The notes beneath the pieces are model-generated. The model was not told the DNA's origin. It saw only the letters and a program-made list of their open reading frames with translations, and did no database searches. The position numbers and the translations under genes are program-made. Of a DNA stretch of 15,850 nt, positions 1 to 15,850 are shown piece after piece (the stretch's first letter is position 1; the number at the start of each line of letters is the position of its first letter). Source of the stretch: Candidatus Fermentibacterales bacterium (GTDB lineage Bacteria; Fermentibacterota; Fermentibacteria; Fermentibacterales; JAFGKQ01); the NCBI GenBank assembly GCA_016928495.1, contig JAFGKQ010000105.1:1-15850 (forward strand), in the 5' to 3' direction.

Positions 1-106
1 GTCTCAGAATGCTGTCGTGCAGCTCCAGCGCCGCCCGCATCTCGTGGGGATGATCCTGCCAGCGTCTCGTGGAGCCCTCGATGTCCGTGAAGAGGAACAG
101 GGGCAT
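1..106 (-). CDS. Class III adenylate/guanylate cyclase, N-terminal fragment (gene leaves the window)
   Basis: Reading leftward from the ATG at 106-104 gives 35 open codons up to the window edge. They begin MPLFLFTDIEGSTRRWQDHP. The segment LFTDIEGST is the classic first strand of class III nucleotide cyclase domains, and its Asp (residue 8) is the first metal-binding residue. Cyclases of this kind make cAMP or cGMP. When the cyclase domain sits at the extreme N-terminus, as here, it is very often followed by an AAA/NB-ARC ATPase and TPR repeats, but none of that is visible. An AGGAGG lies 12 nt upstream of the ATG, slightly far but convincing. The gene diverges from the TIR gene at 406. Family recognition rests on a short stretch, but that stretch is highly characteristic. 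Confidence 0.8.
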   Translation of the reverse strand, partial: MPLFLFTDIEGSTRRWQDHPHEMRAALELHDSILR

Positions 107-405: not shown

Positions 406-3400
406 ATGAGCAGGGCCGTCTTCATCAGCCATTCGAGTCGGGACAGGGAAGCCGCGGGGCTGATCTGCGAGTACCTGGAGTCCAGAGGACAGGCCTGCTG
501 GATTGCCCCCAGAGACATACCGACGGGCTCGGACTGGGTAGAGTCGATCATAGACGGAATCGACTCCGCATCGGCAATGGTGCTCGTAGTGTCCAGCGAC
601 TCCAACCGCTCGCCACAGGTCAGGAGGGAGATCGAGCGTGCCGTCAGCCGGGGACTGGCGCTGGTTTCCGTGGTCATAGAGCGCGTCGACTTCTCCAAAT
701 GGATGCAGTACTACATCTCGACCAGGCAGTGGTACGACGCCACCAGGGGAGATCTCGAGAGGCACCTGCCCGCGATACTCGAGGCGCTCGGGCCCGGCGA
801 AGAAGAGGTCAAGGCCGGGATGTCGAATCTGGCCACCCTGCTCGAGAGCGATATCTCCAGGCTCGCTTCCGAGATCGAGTACGAGGAAGGGGCCAGCACC
901 GCGAGGCTCGAGGAGGGCGAGCGGAGGAAGGCCGCGGTGCTCTCGATAGAGGTGAGAAGACCCGCCGGGGCACACATGTCGAGGCGTGCCCTGTCGAGGA
1001 TAGCGGAGACCATCTCGGGCATGGTAGGCAAGGTCGTTCAGGCCTACGGCGGCTTCCTCGAGCGGGACGAAGCCTTCTCCTTCAGGTGCGTCTTCGGCGT
1101 CGAGCGTGCGCTCGAGGACGACAGCCAGAGAGCCGTCAGCAGCGCCATCAGGGTGTTCAACGGCCTCGGGCAGATCAACGGCGTTCTCAGGGCGCAGGAC
1201 ATCGTGCTCGACTTCATGATGGGCGCGTCCGCAGGGGTCCTGGAAGTGTCCAGGGACGTCATCGGCGGGCAGAAGGTATCCGGTAGCGCGCTCGACGAGG
1301 CCGACTCTCTGGCGGAGAGGGAGCCCCGCAACGTTCTCCTGGTCACCAAGGACGTCTTCAGGGACTGCAGGGGCAGGTATCCGTTCGAGCCCTGCGGTGA
1401 GCTCTACGGACAGCCGACCTACGAGCTCACGGAGTACACGATGCAGCCTCCCGCGGACGAGCCCTCCCAGCAGGAGATGACCCCCTTCGTCGGAAGGAAG
1501 CGTGAGCTCGACGAGCTGCGCAGCCTTGCCGCCAGGCAGGTCGGCGGGACCGAGCCGAACAGGCGCGGGGGCTGCAAACACCTGGTGATCGGCATCAGGG
1601 GAGAGGCCGGGGCCGGCAAGACCAGGCTGGTCAGGGAGCTTCGCAGGGAGCTCGAGGCGGATCACCGCGATCCGCCACTGATCCTGTGCTCGAGGACCAT
1701 GGCCTACGCGCAACCTCCCTACTGGCTCTGGACGTCGATGCTCAGACAGCTCCTCGGCCTGGGTCACGACGAACGCCCCGGGTACGGGGAGTTCAGGGCG
1801 AGGCTCTCCGGCCTGTCGGGGGACGAGGCTCTGACGGATTCGGCGCCCTTCCTGGCCGAGCTCCTCTCGATAGACCCGGGAGACTCGGGCTCCTCGTCCA
1901 TGGACGAAGCGGCCAGGTCCCTCGAGATCAGGGCTGCTCTCAGGAACGTCTTCAGAGCCGTGGCGGCCACTCGCAGGCTCGTCCTGGTCCTGGACGACCT
2001 GCACAGGACAGGCAGCACCTGCAGGAGCGCCCTCGAGTTCATCATCGCCGAGTGTGACTCGAAGAGGCCCATCCTCATGATCATGCTCTACAGGTCCGAG
2101 CGAGAGGACGGCTCGGCGGTCGAGTTCGCCATCCTCCCGGGGTATGCCGAGGCATCGGAGCTGTGCCTGGAACCTCTGTCCACCCGTGAATCAGAGGAGC
2201 TGATGCAGGAGGTGCTGACATCCATGGGCGGGTCGGGGGAGGCCTCCGACAGACTGAGGACCCTTCTGCTCGGATGCTCCAGAGGCAATCCCTTCTTCAT
2301 GGAGGAGATGATCAGAGAGCTCGTCGAGTCGGGCACTGCCACCGAGACCGGGCAGGGATGGGATCTTCCGGATCGCCCGGGCGACTCGCTGGTTCCGTCG
2401 ACTCTCTCGGGACTGCTCCAGTCCCGCCTGGATCGGCTCCCGGGAGACCAGAAGGCCGTTCTCCAGGGTTCCTCGGTCCTGGGAATGGAGTTCCTGATGG
2501 GCCTGTTCAGATCCCTTGCAGCCAGGGTCTACGGCAGCGAGGACGAAGCCAGGTTGCTGGACGACCTGGAGCGGAGGCAGTTCCTGAGCTGCGAGAGGAG
2601 CGCCTTCGAGCGGAGGTACGCCTTCCCCAGCAAGCTGATACACGATGTTGCCTATGACAGCATGCTCGAGAGCAACAGACGGCTCCTGCACAGGGCTGCA
2701 GCCGAGTCCATCGAGGAGTTCTTCCCTGAGGACCAGGATGGCGTTGCCTCCGCTCTGGCCTACCACTGGGACAGGGCGGGGGATCCCCGCAGAGCGGTAC
2801 GTTGGGGGTTGAGGGCCCTCGTCGGGGCAGCCGCCAGCTACCAGAACGAAGACGCGCTCATGCTCGCCGAGAGGCTGATCGAGCTCCTGGACAGCCTGCC
2901 GCCGGGGGACGAGGCCGACGGCTGGATGCTCGACGTCCTGCTCCAGAAGGCCAGGGTCGAGGGAGTGCTCGGGCTGAAGGAGCAGGAGCTGGCGACCATC
3001 CGTCGCTCCATGGAGATGACCGCGGACGGCCGCTACCCCCGGAGGGAATGCGAGATAGCCATCGAGATGGCCCACTACCTGGAGATGGACGGCAAGCCAG
3101 GGGAGTCGAGGAGCCTGTACGAGAAGGCACTGGCTATCGCCAGGGAGATAGGCGATACCGGACTGCAGTCGATAGCTCTGATGAACCTGGCAGGGGCTGA
3201 GCACAGGGCGGCCAGACCCGATGAGGCCATGTCCCTCTACGAGCAGGCGAGGAAGCTCGCCGTGGAAGGGGGAACCCTGCTCATGGAGGCGCAGGTGGTG
3301 CTCAACATCGGCGTGCTCCACCACAGGCTGGGCAGGATGGACCAGGCGATGGAGAGCTACGACGAGACGATCGGCCTGCTCGAGCGAATCGGAGACAGGA

Positions 3401-4143
3401 AGGCCCTCGCCACAGTCCTCGTGAACCAGGGCATACTCCACAGCAACCAGGACAGGACCGAGAAAGCCCTGGAGCACTACGGAAGGGCGATGAGACTCTT
3501 CAGGGAGATCGGATTCAGGCGGGGAGAGGCCGCTACCGGGATCAACATGGGGATAGTCTACCGGGAGCTTGGCAACTACCCGGAGGCTCGCGAGCTCTTC
3601 AGCCAGGCCATCCAGCTCAACGACGAGATAGGCGACAGGCAGGCCTCGGTGGTCGCCATGCTGAACCTCGGAGCCCTCCACCAGGACCAGGGCGAGCTGG
3701 ACGAGGCCGAGGAGTGCTTTCGAAAGAGCCTCGAGACCGGGCTGGAATCGGACAGCATAAGGCTCGAGGGTCACGCCAGGTTCGGCCTCGGGTCGGTTCA
3801 CAGGCTGAAAGGCCGATTGCATCAGGCGAGGGAGGAGCTCGAGACCGCGCTGGGGATCCTGCGAGAGATCGGCGAGAGGAAGTCCGAGAGCGCTGCTCTC
3901 AGCACTCTTGGCCTTCTCTGCTGCGACGAGGGACAGCCTGAGGAGGGCCTCGCCCGCTATTCCGAAGCGCTGGAGATCCTCGAGGACCTCGAGCTTGGAG
4001 TTCTCGACTCGGAGGATTTCACGGGACTGCGTGACAGGTTGATGGAGATGGGCTGCGAGAGCGACAGAGTACCTCTTCCCTCGCAGTGGGAGTCGGCCTC
4101 CTCACCCGCCGGTGGGGCTGCACCGGGCGACACCTCCGGATAG
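406..4143 (+). CDS. TIR / degenerate nucleotide cyclase / AAA ATPase / TPR sensor protein
   Basis: This is a 1245-residue, four-module, presumably cytoplasmic protein. Residues 1-130 are a TIR_2 domain (VFISHSSRD near the start, CWIAPRDI at 31-38). E75 in VRREIERA matches the position of the catalytic Glu in NAD-cleaving TIR domains. Residues 172-345 follow the class III cyclase fold pattern (GERRKAAVLS, then VVQAYGGFLERDEAF, then SRDVIGGQKV). The first metal Asp is replaced by E182 and the catalytic Asn/Arg pair is absent, so this domain is probably inactive. Residues 359 to about 760 are an AAA_16-type ATPase, opening FVGRKRELDEL, with Walker A GEAGAGKT (399-406) and Walker B LVLVLDDLH (D530-D531). 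Residues from about 880 to 1195 are TPRs in an exact 40-residue register. I chose the ATG at 406 because the TIR fold starts there and AGGGAA lies 10 nt upstream. The gene is followed after 96 nt by the GGDEF gene. An NADase or cyclic-ADP-ribose output is inferred from the family; the ligand is unknown. Confidence 0.9.
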   Translation: MSRAVFISHSSRDREAAGLICEYLESRGQACWIAPRDIPTGSDWVESIIDGIDSASAMVLVVSSDSNRSPQVRREIERAVSRGLALVSVVIERVDFSKWMQYYISTRQWYDATRGDLERHLPAILEALGPGEEEVKAGMSNLATLLESDISRLASEIEYEEGASTARLEEGERRKAAVLSIEVRRPAGAHMSRRALSRIAETISGMVGKVVQAYGGFLERDEAFSFRCVFGVERALEDDSQRAVSSAIRVFNGLGQINGVLRAQDIVLDFMMGASAGVLEVSRDVIGGQKVSGSALDEADSLAEREPRNVLLVTKDVFRDCRGRYPFEPCGELYGQPTYELTEYTMQPPADEPSQQEMTPFVGRKRELDELRSLAARQVGGTEPNRRGGCKHLVIGIRGEAGAGKTRLVRELRRELEADHRDPPLILCSRTMAYAQPPYWLWTSMLRQLLGLGHDERPGYGEFRARLSGLSGDEALTDSAPFLAELLSIDPGDSGSSSMDEAARSLEIRAALRNVFRAVAATRRLVLVLDDLHRTGSTCRSALEFIIAECDSKRPILMIMLYRSEREDGSAVEFAILPGYAEASELCLEPLSTRESEELMQEVLTSMGGSGEASDRLRTLLLGCSRGNPFFMEEMIRELVESGTATETGQGWDLPDRPGDSLVPSTLSGLLQSRLDRLPGDQKAVLQGSSVLGMEFLMGLFRSLAARVYGSEDEARLLDDLERRQFLSCERSAFERRYAFPSKLIHDVAYDSMLESNRRLLHRAAAESIEEFFPEDQDGVASALAYHWDRAGDPRRAVRWGLRALVGAAASYQNEDALMLAERLIELLDSLPPGDEADGWMLDVLLQKARVEGVLGLKEQELATIRRSMEMTADGRYPRRECEIAIEMAHYLEMDGKPGESRSLYEKALAIAREIGDTGLQSIALMNLAGAEHRAARPDEAMSLYEQARKLAVEGGTLLMEAQVVLNIGVLHHRLGRMDQAMESYDETIGLLERIGDRKALATVLVNQGILHSNQDRTEKALEHYGRAMRLFREIGFRRGEAATGINMGIVYRELGNYPEARELFSQAIQLNDEIGDRQASVVAMLNLGALHQDQGELDEAEECFRKSLETGLESDSIRLEGHARFGLGSVHRLKGRLHQAREELETALGILREIGERKSESAALSTLGLLCCDEGQPEEGLARYSEALEILEDLELGVLDSEDFTGLRDRLMEMGCESDRVPLPSQWESASSPAGGAAPGDTSG

Positions 4144-4239
4144 AGCGCGTGGCGTCACGGCCTGCCCGCGCCCCCGGAAAAGACTTGTACGAAGCCGCCG
4201 GGGACACGATAGTAAGCCATACCGGCTTGTCACCATGAG

Positions 4240-7200
4240 ATGCTGTGCCAACATCGAGGGACGGAGCGCAGGGTGCAGGAAGACACTCCGCGGGACGAGC
4301 TGACTGGACTACCGGGCAGAGAGGCGCTGGAGTCTCTCGGCGGGGACTTCCTTGCGAGAGACCAGGGCACCAGATGGTCCGTGATGGTGGTCGACATAGA
4401 CCACTTCAAGCTGATAAACGACGTCTACGGTCACCTCTGCGGAGACGACGTGCTGAAGCAGATCGGGGCCGTGATCCAGCGAAACGCCCGTCGCGGTGAC
4501 ACGGCGATCAGGTTCGGCGACGACGAGTTCATCGTTGTCATGCCGGGAACAGACCACCTTCAGGCAGCGAACGCCGCGCAGAGAGTCCTGGAAGAGCTGC
4601 GGGAGGAGTCCTTCCCCAACAACCTCGAGGTGAGCCTCTCGCTCGGCGTCGCCGACAGCAGCGATTCCGATCAGGCTCTCTCGAGCGTGGTCGAGAGGGC
4701 GGACAGGGCTCTCTACCAGGCCAAGGAGGGCGGCAGGGGGAGAGTCTCCTTCTACTCGGAGTCCCCGGGCGAGTCCCAGGGCTTTCCTGCCGGCATCTCC
4801 TTCGATCACTTCGTGGACAGGCAGAGGGAGCTCAAGGTCCTCAGAACAGCCCTGGACGAGACCATCCTCCATGGAGGAAGGACCGTCGTGATCTCCGGGT
4901 CGCCGGGCACCGGGAAGACCAGGCTGGGGCACGAGCTGATGCACTACTGCCGCTTCAAGGGCTGCTACTTCCTGGAGGCCCGCTGTGAGGAGCTGGGCTC
5001 CAGGAAGCCCTATACGCTTCTCACTCGTCCCATAGCGCATCGCCTGTCCGAGTTCGAGGACAGGCTGCTCGACAGGCTGAGGGAGGAAATCGGGGAGGTC
5101 GATGCCCGTACCTCGAGCCTCTTCCCCGCCCTGGGCCTGACCGGCTCCATCGTTCAGGCGGACGATCCGGAGTCAACCAGGTTCAGGGTCATGTCGGAGA
5201 TCGCCCGGGTCCTCGGGGCTATGACCTCCATAAGCCCGACCGTTCTCATGGTCGACGACATCCAGTGGATGTCCAGGGCCGATCTCGAGCTGTTCTGTCA
5301 GCTCGCCCGGTCTCTGAGAGAGTCCCCTGTGCTGCTGCTCGCGACCCTCCGCTCTCCTACCCGTGACTACCCGCTCGTGGAGAGCCAGCTTCACTCGCTC
5401 TCCAGGTTCGCGAGGATCAGCGAGCTGGAGCTGAGAGACCTGGAGGCGGAGTATGCCGGGCACATGGTGATGTTCGCTCTCAGGGACCCGCAGGTACCGA
5501 GACAGGTCCTCTCGGTGCTGATCCGGCAGAGCGGCGGCAATCCTCTCTATCTCAGGGAGATCCTGAGATCGCTCCATGAGAGCGGGGCAATCTGCAGGGG
5601 AGAGGACGGATCCTGGCGCTACAGGCTGGAAGAGGGGCCGGCAGTTCCCGACTCCTTGTCCGGGGTGATCGAGGGCAGGCTGGACAAGCTGGAGGGGGAT
5701 GGCAGAGAGGTCGTGCGCGCAGCGGCCCACGCGGTCGGATGCTTCACCCTCGAGCTCATTGCAGCGGTGACCGACAGGCTGGAGCCGGACATCGAACGCT
5801 CGTTCGAGAAGCCTCTGCAGATGGATCTGCTGCGCGAGGAGCCAGGTCCGGGAGAATCGTCCTCCTACTGCTTCCATCACGATACCCTGAGGGAGTTCCT
5901 GCTCCGGGAGACGACCCCGGAGGACCATGTGAGCATCAACGGCAGGATCGCCCGTTTCTACGAGGCACGTCTCGATGACGAAGGCGATTCCGAGCTGCTG
6001 CACAGGATAGCGTTCCACTACGGCGAGAGCGGTGACGAACCCAGGCTCAGCCGGTTCGCCCTTCTCACGGCGCGCGCCTGTCTCGACGACCAGGCCAGGC
6101 TCGAGGCGCTCCCCTGGCTGGAGCGATTCCTCGAGACAGCCGACCGCACGAAGACGGACAGGTCCGACCTGTTCTTCGCCGCGCTCGAGCTCGGTCGTCT
6201 CTATACCCTCACCGGAAGGGACTCCGAAGGTCAGGTTCTCGTGAAGGAGCTCATGCGAGTTGCCGCGGACGAGGAGGAAGTAGGCAGGGTCCACCTGCTC
6301 TCAGGTCAGCTCCTCTTCAACCAGGGGGATATGAAGCTGGCCATGGGCCAACTGAACAACGCTCTCGACAGACTGATCGACCTGTCCGAGAGGGCGGCGG
6401 CAGTCCGCCTCCTGGCGATGGTCCTCTTCAGCATGGGACGCGGAGATCAGGGCATAGAGCTGCTGAGCAGATGCATAAGGGAAGTGGAGAACTCGGACGT
6501 GGGCGGCCGGAGCCACATTCTCGCTCACCTTCACAACGCGCTCGGGGGCATACTCGCGAGCGTGGGCCACTCTCCCGCTGGAGCGGAGCACTGCCTCGAG
6601 GCCGTCTCGCTCTTCTCCGAGGCCGGAGACAGAGCCGGCGAGGCTGCCGCCAGCATGAGCGCCGCCTCGGCGCTGGACTACGAGCTGGACTGGGAGAAGC
6701 GCCTGTCGCTCATGAAGTCGGCGGTCGGCACCTTCAGGGAGATGGGGCTCGTCGATTCCCTGATGCCGGCATACGTCAGCATGGCAAGGCTTTACAACCT
6801 GATCGGGCAGTACGATCTCACGGAGGAGTATGCCTCGCTGGCGAGGTCGCTGGCAGAGGATACCGGAGCCAGGGACGACCTGATGTGGGCCGAGGCCTAC
6901 CTCGGTTTCGCGGCTTCCGGCAAGGGCGACCCGGGCAGTGCCGAGAGCCATTTCGGTACCGCCATAAGGCTGGCGGTGGAGTGTGGCTCACCCTCGCTCG
7001 CTTCCAGATTCAGGCTCGATCTGGCCGAGTTCTACATCGACCGCAACCAGCTGGACCGCGCTGAGGAGCTCGTGGCCGAGGTCGAGAAGACCAAAGGTCT
7101 CGATCAGATGGGCGATAAGCTCGCCAACTCCCTCTCCTGGGCAAGGGGCAGGCTCTTCCTGGCTGGAGCCATGGGGGACAGGGACAAGCTCGGCAAGGCG

Positions 7201-7470
7201 GAGGAGCTGCTCAGGGCGAGAAGGGACTCACACCAGATGTTCGGCTTCGTCGAGGACATGGAGACAGCCTACGTTCTGGCGAGATGCCTGCTCCAGAAGG
7301 GAAAGATCTCCGAGGCCGCCGAACTGGTGAGAGAGGCCTTCGCGAAGCTCCAGGAGTGCCTGGAGAACTTCCGCAGCAGCACGCTCAGGAACAGCTTCTC
7401 GAGAACGGAGCTCGCCTCCGGTCTCACAAGGCTTCACGACAGCCTTCTCGGCAGGAGCACCTCGGACTGA
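4240..7470 (+). CDS. GGDEF (variant GDDEF) / AAA ATPase / TPR sensor protein
   Basis: This is a 1076-residue protein. Residues 18-175 are a GGDEF domain: DELTGLPGREAL, then VVDIDHFKLINDVYGH, then an RxxD inhibitory-site motif (R84-D87), then the signature. The signature reads GDDEF (93-97) instead of GGDEF, so diguanylate cyclase activity is doubtful. A conserved linker (FDHFVDRQREL) leads into a P-loop ATPase with Walker A GSPGTGKT (220-227) and Walker B TVLMVDD (D339-D340). A winged-helix-like segment follows, with the typical RQSGGNPLYLREIL. Residues from about 600 to 1050 are degenerate TPR-like helices. The ATG at 4240 has only a weak ribosome site. A GTG at 4273 has GGAG 6 nt upstream and would give an N-terminus the same length as in the paralogue at 13483, so it is a serious alternative start. 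The downstream lipoprotein gene overlaps this stop codon. Confidence 0.9.
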   Translation: MLCQHRGTERRVQEDTPRDELTGLPGREALESLGGDFLARDQGTRWSVMVVDIDHFKLINDVYGHLCGDDVLKQIGAVIQRNARRGDTAIRFGDDEFIVVMPGTDHLQAANAAQRVLEELREESFPNNLEVSLSLGVADSSDSDQALSSVVERADRALYQAKEGGRGRVSFYSESPGESQGFPAGISFDHFVDRQRELKVLRTALDETILHGGRTVVISGSPGTGKTRLGHELMHYCRFKGCYFLEARCEELGSRKPYTLLTRPIAHRLSEFEDRLLDRLREEIGEVDARTSSLFPALGLTGSIVQADDPESTRFRVMSEIARVLGAMTSISPTVLMVDDIQWMSRADLELFCQLARSLRESPVLLLATLRSPTRDYPLVESQLHSLSRFARISELELRDLEAEYAGHMVMFALRDPQVPRQVLSVLIRQSGGNPLYLREILRSLHESGAICRGEDGSWRYRLEEGPAVPDSLSGVIEGRLDKLEGDGREVVRAAAHAVGCFTLELIAAVTDRLEPDIERSFEKPLQMDLLREEPGPGESSSYCFHHDTLREFLLRETTPEDHVSINGRIARFYEARLDDEGDSELLHRIAFHYGESGDEPRLSRFALLTARACLDDQARLEALPWLERFLETADRTKTDRSDLFFAALELGRLYTLTGRDSEGQVLVKELMRVAADEEEVGRVHLLSGQLLFNQGDMKLAMGQLNNALDRLIDLSERAAAVRLLAMVLFSMGRGDQGIELLSRCIREVENSDVGGRSHILAHLHNALGGILASVGHSPAGAEHCLEAVSLFSEAGDRAGEAAASMSAASALDYELDWEKRLSLMKSAVGTFREMGLVDSLMPAYVSMARLYNLIGQYDLTEEYASLARSLAEDTGARDDLMWAEAYLGFAASGKGDPGSAESHFGTAIRLAVECGSPSLASRFRLDLAEFYIDRNQLDRAEELVAEVEKTKGLDQMGDKLANSLSWARGRLFLAGAMGDRDKLGKAEELLRARRDSHQMFGFVEDMETAYVLARCLLQKGKISEAAELVREAFAKLQECLENFRSSTLRNSFSRTELASGLTRLHDSLLGRSTSD
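7453..7457 (+). promoter_or_regulatory. Ribosome binding site that points to a CTG start
   Basis: AGGAG lies inside the last codons of the GGDEF gene and ends 9 nt before the CTG at 7467. That CTG is the first codon of a textbook lipoprotein signal peptide. No ATG, GTG or TTG in that frame lies at a usable distance. This site is the main reason for choosing the unusual start. Confidence 0.55.
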
Positions 7471-11727: not shown

Positions 11728-13338
11728 TCAGCGCGACTCCTGTCTCCCGTAGACGTAGAAGGTCCGGATGCCCTCGGAGCAGTAGCCCCGGGTCGTGGGA
11801 GAGAGCGTGAATCTGGTGGTCTGCGAACCGACTGTGTCGGATTCCTCGAACACAAGGTCCCAGCCGCCGAACGCTTCTATCATTTCCCGCTTCTCGAGGT
11901 AGTAGTCCAGATTCGCGATATGGGTAACGCCCGCCGAGTCCAGGTAGTGGCCCAGACCAGAGGTCCGGATGGCATCCAGATAATCATAGCTGTTCACCAG
12001 ACCGTCCAGGTTGACCACGGGATGTCTGCAGAAGTAACCCAGGAAACCGGCATCCCAGCTCGCTATCAGGCTCCCGTCCGGCAGGGCGTCGAGGAACCGG
12101 ATACCGGCCGTCTCGGGCCTACTGTCCATCGGGATCCGGAAGGCATAGCTCCCCAGGAGGTCCGCCCCGTAGATCAGGTCGAAGCCGAGCGTGAGGGCGA
12201 GCATCAGCACCAGCACGACCCTGGCCGCCCACGCGCCTCCCGCGGTCCAGAAGAGCGCCGGAAGCAGCAGGATCCAGCCCAGGATCACCGGGAACCAGTA
12301 ATAGGTGTAGGTGTCGAGGAGGGAGCCGTAGGCCAGGGAGTAGAACACCAGCAGGCCGATCGAGTAGGCAAGGTGCGAGAGGGTAAGAACGCGCAGCGCC
12401 CTCCCGGATCTCCGCAGGCCCAGGACCGCGAGGGCACCCAGAATCAGGACCCCGCAGAGCAGGATGATCGGACTGAGTCGTCCGCCGAGGGTCAGGAACT
12501 CCAGGGCATTGGTCACCCCGTGCCCGATCAGGGCCATGTTCCCCGTGCCGAACAGGCGCCTGAGCATCATCCTTCCCGGCTCGGACTTCACGAAGGCCGA
12601 GACGGGCGCGAGACGGCCCGTCGTCAGCAGGTTGACCGAAGCGTAGAGGACAGTGAAGAGGCCAGCGGGGGCGACGAGCAGAACGGAGTCCCGCAACCTC
12701 CGGGTAAAGATCAGGATAGCCAGCCCGACCAGCAGAACCAGCAGGATCGTGTCGAGCCTGCTCGCAACCAGCAGGGCCAGCAACAGCGAGGCCCTGACCG
12801 GACTCCTGCCCCGCGACAGGTACTCCACCAGAGACAGCAGGCTCATCCCGTGCAGCAGAACGGCCAGTCCGGTCTCCATGCAGGACATGCCGCCCTTGGT
12901 GAGTAGCCAGAGGTTGGCGAGCCAGAGGGCCGAGACGGCGGGAGCGGCCCACCGGACCGGAGGGTCCAGCCTTCCGGCCGTGGCGAAGAGAGCAAGGCCG
13001 CCGGCCGCGAACAGCACGAGCTGGACCAGAGAAGCCAGCCAGAGCGCGGGCACCCCTCCTCCGGAGACCGCCATCACGGGAACCAGCAGGAGCTGCCACA
13101 GAGGATGGAACCCGTTGGTAGGGTTGATCCCGTCGAAGGAAAAGCCCCTGCCCTCAGCGAGATTGGAGGCGATCCCGAGGTAGTAGTATCCGTCATCCAC
13201 AGGGATGGGGCCGAACAGGGCCAGGACCAGAACGCCCACCGCCAGACTCAGAAGACACAGACCCGCCGCGAAGAACCGCCCACGGTCGAGCGGTCCCTTC
13301 GGGACAGCTGTTCCGATGCGTGAATCGTCAGGCTTCAT
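11728..13338 (-). CDS. GT-C family membrane glycosyltransferase
   Basis: The 536-residue integral membrane protein has about ten or eleven hydrophobic segments, the first near residues 22-44. The first periplasmic loop carries the acidic pair of GT-C enzymes (D48-D49 in PVDDGYYYLGIASNLAEG), followed by GINPTNGFHPLW (70-81). This signature recurs in ArnT/PMT-related proteins annotated as glycosyltransferase family 39 or GT-C. The C-terminal 125 or so residues look soluble and periplasmic (SWDAGFLGYF, then NLDGLVNS), as in relatives. Such enzymes transfer a sugar from a polyprenyl-phosphate donor to an envelope glycan or protein; donor and acceptor cannot be told. A strong ribosome site (GGAGGA) precedes the ATG by 8 nt. 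It diverges from the second GGDEF gene and is followed by the small lipoprotein. It has no obvious link to the sensor genes. Confidence 0.85.
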   Translation of the reverse strand: MKPDDSRIGTAVPKGPLDRGRFFAAGLCLLSLAVGVLVLALFGPIPVDDGYYYLGIASNLAEGRGFSFDGINPTNGFHPLWQLLLVPVMAVSGGGVPALWLASLVQLVLFAAGGLALFATAGRLDPPVRWAAPAVSALWLANLWLLTKGGMSCMETGLAVLLHGMSLLSLVEYLSRGRSPVRASLLLALLVASRLDTILLVLLVGLAILIFTRRLRDSVLLVAPAGLFTVLYASVNLLTTGRLAPVSAFVKSEPGRMMLRRLFGTGNMALIGHGVTNALEFLTLGGRLSPIILLCGVLILGALAVLGLRRSGRALRVLTLSHLAYSIGLLVFYSLAYGSLLDTYTYYWFPVILGWILLLPALFWTAGGAWAARVVLVLMLALTLGFDLIYGADLLGSYAFRIPMDSRPETAGIRFLDALPDGSLIASWDAGFLGYFCRHPVVNLDGLVNSYDYLDAIRTSGLGHYLDSAGVTHIANLDYYLEKREMIEAFGGWDLVFEESDTVGSQTTRFTLSPTTRGYCSEGIRTFYVYGRQESR

Positions 13339-13482
13339 GCAGGATATCCTCCGACATTACTGACGCGGCATCAAGTCCCGACACGGGCAACAGGCCGACT
13401 TCCCCGCGCAGACGGCTCTGCTTAGGTTCACTCTGGAGCAGAGGAGCCGGCATCCACGGCACAGGCAGTGGGCGGAAGGGGA
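13339..13482. other. Divergent intergenic region between the glycosyltransferase and the second GGDEF gene
   Basis: These 144 bases must carry both promoters if the two genes are independently transcribed. I find no convincing -35/-10 pair. GCAGA (13408) can pair with TCTGC (13417-13421), and TCTGCT (13417-13422) can instead pair with AGCAGA (13437-13442). The two hairpins are short and mutually exclusive, which is at most a hint of leader control. On the plus strand GGCGGAAGGGGA leads directly to the ATG at 13483. Confidence 0.5.
13347..13352 (-). promoter_or_regulatory. Ribosome binding site of the glycosyltransferase
   Basis: GGAGGA on the minus strand, 8 nt before the ATG at 13338, an ideal spacing. 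It is the best ribosome site seen in the window. Confidence 0.7.
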
Positions 13483-15850
13483 ATGACCCAGTCTGGCGAG
13501 CACCGCGACGGCCTTACCGGCCTGCCCGGAAGGGAAGCCCTGGAGAGCCTGGATCACGGGTTCTCGTCCAGGCCCGAGGGCGAGACCTGGTCAGTCATGG
13601 TGGCCGATGTGGACCACTTCAAGCTCATCAACGACGTCTACGGCCACCTCAAGGGGGACAGGGTCCTGCGGCAGGTTGCCGATGTCCTGGCGAGGAACGT
13701 CCGGCGGACCGATCATGTCCTGCGCTACGGGGGTGACGAGTTCGTCGTGGTGATGCCCGCCACCAGCCACCTGCAGGCCGCGAACCAGGCACAGAGGATC
13801 CTCGAGGATCTCGAGACCGAGATCTTCCCGGAGAACGTCAGGGTGAGTCTGTCCCTGGGAGTAGCAGACAGCGCGGCGGACGACAGCAAGCTCTCCGAGG
13901 TCATGGAGAAGGCTGACAAAGCGCTCTACCAGGCCAAGGACGGCGGCAGGGGAAGGGTCTCCTTCTACCGGGATCCGGGGGCAGGGCCCCCGCAGGCAGC
14001 GATGAGTTTCGACCACTTCGTGGACAGGCACAGGGAACTCAGGTCCCTTCGGGCCACCCTCGACGAGGTCGTCGAGCAGGGCAGCAGGTTCGCGCTGGTC
14101 AGCGGCGAGCCGGGAGTCGGGAAGAGCAGGCTTGTGGCGGAGCTGAGACACTACTGCAGCTTCAGGGGGTGTCTCTTCCTCGAGACGAAATGCGACGAGC
14201 TCGGATCCTCGGCCCCCTACGTGCAGCTCACCGGCCCGATCAGGGACCACCTGCTCGAGTCTCCACCGGCCCCCTTGCGCGAGATGCTCTTGGAGGTGGG
14301 TCCGCTCCACCCTCAGACCGCAGAACTGCTCAGGGGGGTGGATGTGGCCGAGGACGACTCGCAGGAAGCCGTCTCGGGCTCGGAGGGAGCCGTCAGGCAC
14401 AGGGTCTTCTGCGATGCGTCATCCCTGCTGAGGCAGATCGCCAGGAGGCGACCGGTCGTCTTCCTGATAGACGATCTCCAGTGGATCTCGGGGCACGACC
14501 TCGAGATGCTCTGCTATCTCGTTCGCACCTCCGCCTCGGCGAGGATCTTTTTCGTCGCAACCATGCGCAGCCCCGTCGACGGCTACCCGGAGGTTCACCG
14601 GCAGGTGATAGTGCTGTCGAAGCTAGTACCGTTCCTCACTGTCGAGCTCAGCGAGCTTCCGGAGGAGTACGCGGGCCACCTCGTGATGTTCGCGCTCCGT
14701 GACCCGCACGTGCCAAGACCGGTCCTGCAGCGGCTGGTGCGTCAGAGCGGCGGCAACCCCTTCTACCTCAGGGAGCTCCTGAAGTCCCTCACGGAGAAGG
14801 GGTCGATATCTCCCGGGGCGGCTGGAAGCTGGGACTACGAGGTCGCTGACGATCTGGAGCTTCCGGAGAGCATCTCTCAGGTCATATCCGAGCGATTGGA
14901 GGGTCTCGACGACTTCACCAGAGAGCTGCTGAGGACCGCCTCGGCGGTCGTTGGCGGCTTCACCATCGAGCTTCTCGCTTTCGTGCTGGACGAGCCTGGC
15001 ATCAGGATCGCAAGGTCTCTGCAGAAGCCCCTGGAAATGGAGTTGATGGTCGAAGATGCTGGCCTCGTCGGATCTCCCGAGTATCGCTTCACCCACGATA
15101 CCGTGCGCAGCTACCTCCACTCGCAGCTGACACTCGGCCTGAGGAAGGCGGTAAACTCCAGACTGGGGCTCTTCTTCGAGCAACGGCTGGATCGAGGGCC
15201 GGACGAGCTTCTGGCGACGGTCGCTCACTACTACTGCGACAGCCTCGACGAAGAGCGGGCAAGGAAATACAGCCTGATGGCCGCAAGGCAGGCCATGGGC
15301 CGGCAGGCAACCCGCGAGGCGATACGATGGCTCGAGTGCTACAGAGGAGTCAGCTTCGCCGGTTCCGCAGAGCACGAGGAGGATGAGTTCTTCGCCGAAT
15401 CGACGCTGGGCGACCTCTACACTCTCGTTGCCGACCACGACAGAGCCGAAGAGTGCTTCCGGAGGGCGCTGGCCATGGCCCGATCGCCCGGGGAGAGGGG
15501 CCTGGTGTTGGCGGGACTGGGGCAGATGCTCTACAACAGGGGCGACTACGACCAGGCGAGGATGGAGTTAGAGGCCTCCCTCGAGCTTCTTCCCGTGTGC
15601 GAGACCTACCTGAGAGCGGGAATGAGACTTGCCTTCATGTGGCACCTCCGCGGCGACAGCGAGCAGGCGACAAGGAGCTTCCTGGCCATGCGCGAGACGT
15701 TTCCCCAGATCGAAGATGCGACCATCAGGAAGCGTCTGGAGGCAACGTACTGCAGCGGAGCCGGCTTCGTCATGGCCCACTCCGTGTCCCCGCGAGAGGG
15801 CCTGGAACTCTGCAGGAAGGCAGTGGACCTCTACCGCGAGCTGGCTGACA
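13483..15850 (+). CDS. GGDEF / AAA ATPase / TPR sensor protein, second copy, 3' end outside the window
   Basis: The frame is open from the ATG at 13483 to the window edge, giving 789 visible residues. The protein is co-linear with the one encoded at 4240-7470. A GGDEF domain (residues 10-163) has VADVDHFKLINDVYGH, an RxxD inhibitory site (R74-D77) and an intact GGDEF signature (83-87), so diguanylate cyclase activity is plausible. The shared linker FDHFVDRHREL follows. The P-loop ATPase has Walker A GEPGVGKS (208-215) and Walker B VVFLIDD (D330-D331), and then RQSGGNPFYLREL. TPR-like helices begin near residue 600 (TLGDLYTLVADHDRAEECF) and continue to the edge. By family this would make c-di-GMP in response to ATPase/TPR-sensed input; the ligand is unknown. 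The ATG is preceded by GGCGGAAGGGG. The gene diverges from the glycosyltransferase. Confidence 0.9.
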   Translation, partial: MTQSGEHRDGLTGLPGREALESLDHGFSSRPEGETWSVMVADVDHFKLINDVYGHLKGDRVLRQVADVLARNVRRTDHVLRYGGDEFVVVMPATSHLQAANQAQRILEDLETEIFPENVRVSLSLGVADSAADDSKLSEVMEKADKALYQAKDGGRGRVSFYRDPGAGPPQAAMSFDHFVDRHRELRSLRATLDEVVEQGSRFALVSGEPGVGKSRLVAELRHYCSFRGCLFLETKCDELGSSAPYVQLTGPIRDHLLESPPAPLREMLLEVGPLHPQTAELLRGVDVAEDDSQEAVSGSEGAVRHRVFCDASSLLRQIARRRPVVFLIDDLQWISGHDLEMLCYLVRTSASARIFFVATMRSPVDGYPEVHRQVIVLSKLVPFLTVELSELPEEYAGHLVMFALRDPHVPRPVLQRLVRQSGGNPFYLRELLKSLTEKGSISPGAAGSWDYEVADDLELPESISQVISERLEGLDDFTRELLRTASAVVGGFTIELLAFVLDEPGIRIARSLQKPLEMELMVEDAGLVGSPEYRFTHDTVRSYLHSQLTLGLRKAVNSRLGLFFEQRLDRGPDELLATVAHYYCDSLDEERARKYSLMAARQAMGRQATREAIRWLECYRGVSFAGSAEHEEDEFFAESTLGDLYTLVADHDRAEECFRRALAMARSPGERGLVLAGLGQMLYNRGDYDQARMELEASLELLPVCETYLRAGMRLAFMWHLRGDSEQATRSFLAMRETFPQIEDATIRKRLEATYCSGAGFVMAHSVSPREGLELCRKAVDLYRELAD

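Follow-up and report, generated by a model that had tools for sequence, protein, structure and literature searches.

What does a cyclase domain that seems to have lost its catalytic residues do between a TIR domain and an ATPase, and how did such a protein arise? The question is raised by a gene at 406–4143 on the forward strand of the window, a 15,850-nt stretch that is one whole contig of a 2.3-Mb genome bin. Its reading frame runs uninterrupted from the ATG at 406 and, by ORF and Pfam analysis, encodes a 1,245-residue TIR/pseudo-cyclase/AAA_16 STAND ATPase/TPR protein, with all parts on the plus strand. The TIR domain (residues 1–118; 406–759) was delimited by Pfam TIR_2 (residues 5–115, E 1.4e-21) and a TIR-only model, and is followed by a linker (residues 119–168; 760–909) in which the structure model places a long helix at 133–156 with low confidence. 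Next come a class III cyclase domain (CHD) fold at residues 169–345 (910–1440), an AAA_16 NTPase core at residues about 358–560 (1477–2085; Pfam match over 360–559, E 1.5e-13), a helical/winged-helix STAND region assigned by motif and position (residues 561–860; 2086–2985), and a TPR region, the presumed sensor (residues 861–1210; 2986–4035; Pfam TPR_12, E 1.9e-44). The features of a STAND protein with TPRs are all present: intact Walker A (GEAGAGKT, 1600–1623) and Walker B (LVLVLDDLH, 1978–2004), a GxP-type motif (GNPFF, residues 627–631), and the C-terminal TPR.

The same TIR-CHD-ATPase-TPR architecture was found in 13 genes, patchily distributed over 8 of the 42 Fermentibacteria genomes of the order with up to three per genome; the window itself is assigned to Candidatus Fermentibacteria by relatives found by sequence (Sabulitectum, Aegiribacteria). 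Such a TIR-CHD head was encoded in none of the 343 other genomes searched outside the phylum, and a pattern-based scan of GTDB genomes, which reaches only proteins sharing two short motifs, returned no case of the architecture outside Fermentibacteria.

The TIR-only model (pLDDT 92) has as its closest folds the TIR domain of SARM1 (Z 18.5) and SPARTA TIR-APAZ (Z 18.1), both NADases. E75 (628–630), the candidate catalytic Glu within SPQVRREIE (residues 69–77), is invariant in 13/13 family members and aligns with E74 of Cat1, in agreement with the original prediction that a Glu is kept at the NADase position; S8 and S69 are likewise invariant and align with Cat1 S7 and S68. In Cat1 these three residues line the NADase site, which is built by two TIRs of stacked units, and the S68A and E74A mutants are defective in causing growth arrest (PMC12162218). 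No NADase assay of this TIR subfamily was found in the literature searched; the TIR head is probably able to cut NAD+. Under an alternative reading the TIR would be an assembly domain only, devoid of NADase activity, and the whole protein a regulatory scaffold. In the WxxxE motif Q71 takes the place of the Trp, and A34 stands where Cat1 has D33, both of which speak against activity; several of the TIR-CHD genes sit among ordinary metabolic or transport genes, as judged from ORF translations. With the three site residues invariant and the nearest folds being those of NADase TIRs, we nevertheless consider this alternative unlikely.

In a Pfam scan of the 1,245-aa protein, cyclase families were all below cut-off among the best 25 of 27 matches, the other two being weaker than E 0.0079. 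An AlphaFold2 model of residues 1–350, built on a 46-sequence alignment (pLDDT 86.6), identified the domain: residues 169–348 superpose on class III cyclases, with Pseudomonas aeruginosa CyaB (3r5g_A) as the top match (Z 23.4; 2.1 Å over 179 residues, 17% identity), and the best 50 structure matches are all cyclases. The CHD is thus a complete cyclase fold and not a fragment. Its metal and transition-state residues are replaced. The family alignment bears out the claims that E182 (949–951) occupies the position of the first metal Asp and that the transition-state Asn/Arg pair is absent (D297, 1294–1296, and S301, 1306–1308), and the loss proved wider than originally stated, as it includes the second metal Asp (F224, 1075–1077) and the purine-selecting Lys (R220, 1063–1065). 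Across the alignment the complete catalytic set occurs in none of the 13 TIR-fused proteins, nor do the two metal Asp residues occur together in any of them, with isolated chance matches in some (e.g., D in the second metal column in six). Since the first-Asp column holds E, S, R, H, I, N, V or K among these proteins, E182 was ruled out as a working Asp-to-Glu swap. A comparison set of 22 TIR-less CHD-ATPase-TPR proteins, mostly from Fermentibacteria, retains both Asp residues and the Arg in 22/22 cases, the Lys in 21 and the Asn in 20. Judged by its residues, the cyclase domain is catalytically dead, and the presence of a TIR head and a dead cyclase in one protein was thereby confirmed as a real observation.

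In mammalian cyclase heterodimers, C1 supplies the two Asp residues and C2 supplies the Lys, Asn and Arg. The possibility that the CHD remains active as half of such a heterodimer was weighed, as a divergent gene start carrying an FTDIEGST motif lies 300 bp away (2–106, minus strand). However, both residue sets are missing from the CHD, so it can complete neither a C1-type nor a C2-type site, and the other TIR-CHD loci show no conserved cyclase neighbor. We rejected this C1/C2-type arrangement, which is the least probable of the readings considered.

Whether the dead domain is still maintained was addressed by dN/dS in four close pairs of relatives, taken from pairs other than those of the window gene. 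Values were 0.085–0.176 for the dead CHD, against 0.19–0.23 for the ATPase core and 0.065–0.12 for the TIR, a comparison in which pair L061/L069, with saturated dS, carries little weight. The dead CHD of the tested pairs is under purifying selection, and the low ratio implies that it has some role. As catalytic loss is common to 13/13 proteins and accompanied by purifying selection in the tested pairs, it reflects neither chance nor pseudogene decay, the latter being ruled out by the CHD values in the close pairs. A decaying relic without any role might have been suspected from the disappearance of the catalytic residues and from shorter relatives at loci L052 and L143, whose CHD is degraded even further, but that reading is largely refuted by the selection test, and the complete fold and clade-specific conserved residues also speak against it; we regard it as very improbable.

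These new conserved positions include R227 and C228, each present in 11/12 sequences on the strand following the former metal site; M and V, A or I are found there in active relatives. They could form a new site, and together with the intact, constrained CHD fold they offer some ground for viewing the pseudo-cyclase as a ligand sensor, in which a nucleotide or other small molecule bound between two subunits would gate the TIR; inactive cyclases of other conflict proteins have also been suggested as nucleotide binders (PMC7159879). Yet the positions for metal, purine and transition state have been lost and differ freely from one relative to the next, and a sensor of this kind appears quite unlikely, less so than the relic but more so than the assembly-only TIR. 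The original prediction had the cyclase turned into either a nucleotide-sensing or a dimerization module. With none of the nucleotide-contacting positions conserved, sensing through the ancestral pocket is unlikely and finds no support, and the second option, dimerization or scaffolding, fits better.

Conservation is distributed unevenly along the chain. Identity of the window protein to its relatives is 56–71% in the TIR, its best-conserved part, 38–48% in the ATPase, 25–49% in the CHD and 26–39% in the TPR region, the last two being the least conserved. The contrast between TIR and TPR is the pattern expected for a conserved effector joined to a varying sensor; the TPR divergence may also be ordinary drift.

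As to origin, a match of NCBIfam TIGR03903 (a TOMM kinase/cyclase model) over residues 179–931, well below its own cut-off, hints at a cyclase-ATPase ancestry. In the CHD tree a single long branch (100/100) parts all TIR-fused from TIR-less sequences, and in the ATPase tree TIR-fused and TIR-less CHD proteins are grouped together (100/100). Some TIR-less sequences sit among the TIR-fused ones in the latter tree, which neither recovers nor rejects a single TIR-fused clade (p-AU 0.15), so that head swapping is possible. Both the phylum and the window's own genome contain TIR-less relatives in which the catalytic residues are complete or nearly so; in that genome, the TIR-less CHD-ATPase-TPR paralogue at L038 (1147–4740) keeps both metal Asp residues, the Lys and the Arg and has its transition-state Asn replaced by Ser. 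The trees and these relatives support the cyclase-ATPase-TPR ancestry that was originally proposed; the direction from live to dead cyclase would be the sensible one because catalytic loss is hard to reverse. The idea of a phage-borne gene was rejected, as a pattern search, which finds similar sequences only, yielded no relatives on viral contigs.

We lean, with somewhat better than even confidence, toward an NLR-like STAND receptor in which the TPR region would sense a ligand and the AAA_16 NTPase would act as an ADP/ATP switch. Activation would bring the N-terminal TIRs together, TIR pairs making NADase sites, for a presumed role in defence or regulated dormancy. The pseudo-cyclase, lying between TIR and NTPase with its fold kept and its ancestral metal and nucleotide binding lost, may dimerize or act as a spacer, setting the position of the TIRs; as the Cat1 NADase site needs two TIRs, a dimerizing insert would by analogy have an obvious use. 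On this account a cyclase-ATPase-TPR protein of Fermentibacteria would have acquired the TIR head, and a shift of output from cyclic nucleotide to NAD breakdown, as originally proposed, is plausible. More tentatively, and with a good deal less confidence, the dead cyclase could be a regulatory hub, in which cyclase-type dimerization or a new ligand at R227/C228 decides whether the TIRs assemble into active NADase sites. If so, one switch chassis would have exchanged its cyclic-nucleotide messenger for an NAD-derived signal, the change lying in which of its domains is active.

We compared the protein with known systems. TIGR03903-like class III cyclase-AAA_16-TPR proteins (LuxR/MalT-type STAND) share with it the CHD-ATPase-TPR order, sequence kinship, the phylum and in part the genomes, but they lack a TIR and keep the catalytic residues. 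With plant TNLs and bacterial TIR-STAND-TPR proteins it has in common a TIR effector, a STAND NTPase and C-terminal repeats; it differs by the pseudo-cyclase placed between TIR and NTPase and by an NTPase that matches AAA_16 and not NB-ARC. Cat1, SARM1 and SPARTA TIR-APAZ share the TIR fold, with the Glu aligned to that of Cat1, but sensing is done there by CARF, ARM or Argonaute, and Cat1 has the WxxxE Trp that this protein lacks. For ternary conflict systems, Kaur et al. 2020 (PMC7159879) reported cNMP cyclase domains that are inactive and joined to vWA proteins; there too a dead cyclase is kept within a multi-domain conflict-type protein, but the window protein lacks vWA, MoxR or VMAP partners and carries its TIR in the same chain. 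Dead cyclases in conflict proteins and TIR-STAND-TPR proteins are thus already known. No description of a TIR-cyclase-STAND fusion was found in the literature searched, whose coverage mostly lay outside subscription journals; within that coverage the TIR/pseudo-cyclase/STAND/TPR chain, its uniform catalytic loss and its constraint also went undescribed. What was once a messenger-producing enzyme has, it seems, become a structural component of an NLR-like receptor. The phylum offers a natural experiment, with the same ATPase-TPR chassis under either a live cyclase head or a TIR and dead cyclase head, and a comparison between them might reveal how a receptor switches from one output signal to another, and whether an enzyme fold stripped of catalysis can persist as an assembly module in NLR-like proteins.

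The gene shares the window with two GGDEF-AAA_16-TPR genes, one PEP-synthase-like gene and the divergent class III cyclase gene, whose start (MPLFLFTDIEGSTRRW...) includes the first metal Asp before the contig end truncates it. In the GGDEF genes (4240–7470 and 13468–15850, plus strand) a third type of head sits on this ATPase-TPR chassis, and the former gene reads GDDEF instead of GGDEF. Across the TIR-CHD loci there were a few pairwise matches and no conserved neighbor family, so the protein probably works alone. Nor were defense-type neighbors recognizable at these loci, and PADLOC gave no Avs match. A Pycsar-like operon, which would pair an active pyrimidine cyclase gene with a TIR or TM effector that binds cyclic nucleotides, was rejected: the relatives' loci have no conserved neighbor, the protein has no cNMP-binding domain, and a cyclase gene start stands beside the window gene only.

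Other TIR genes were also encountered. The shorter relatives L052 (4428–6647, minus) and L143 (2303–4435, plus) consist of TIR, a far more degraded CHD relic and AAA_16, without TPR (profile match 96.7%). At L052 a 1,044-aa TIR-remnant/AAA_16/TPR gene lies tail to tail with the first, an arrangement repeated at L148, where the first gene is truncated by the contig end; each couple is possibly a receptor pair. Locus L057 (2575–17000) contains six tandem TIR genes of about 590–890 aa each, two of which (2575–4350 and 12400–14919) were scanned and matched only TIR families in Pfam. Loci L134–L142 and L144–L147 encode TIR proteins of about 750 aa that form a widespread family; Pfam scans of three members (L137, L138, L144) gave no match at cut-off for the ~600 residues beyond the TIR. 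In the window's own genome, the gene at L036 (1914–3596) joins a TIR to an FGE-sulfatase-like (formylglycine-generating) domain.
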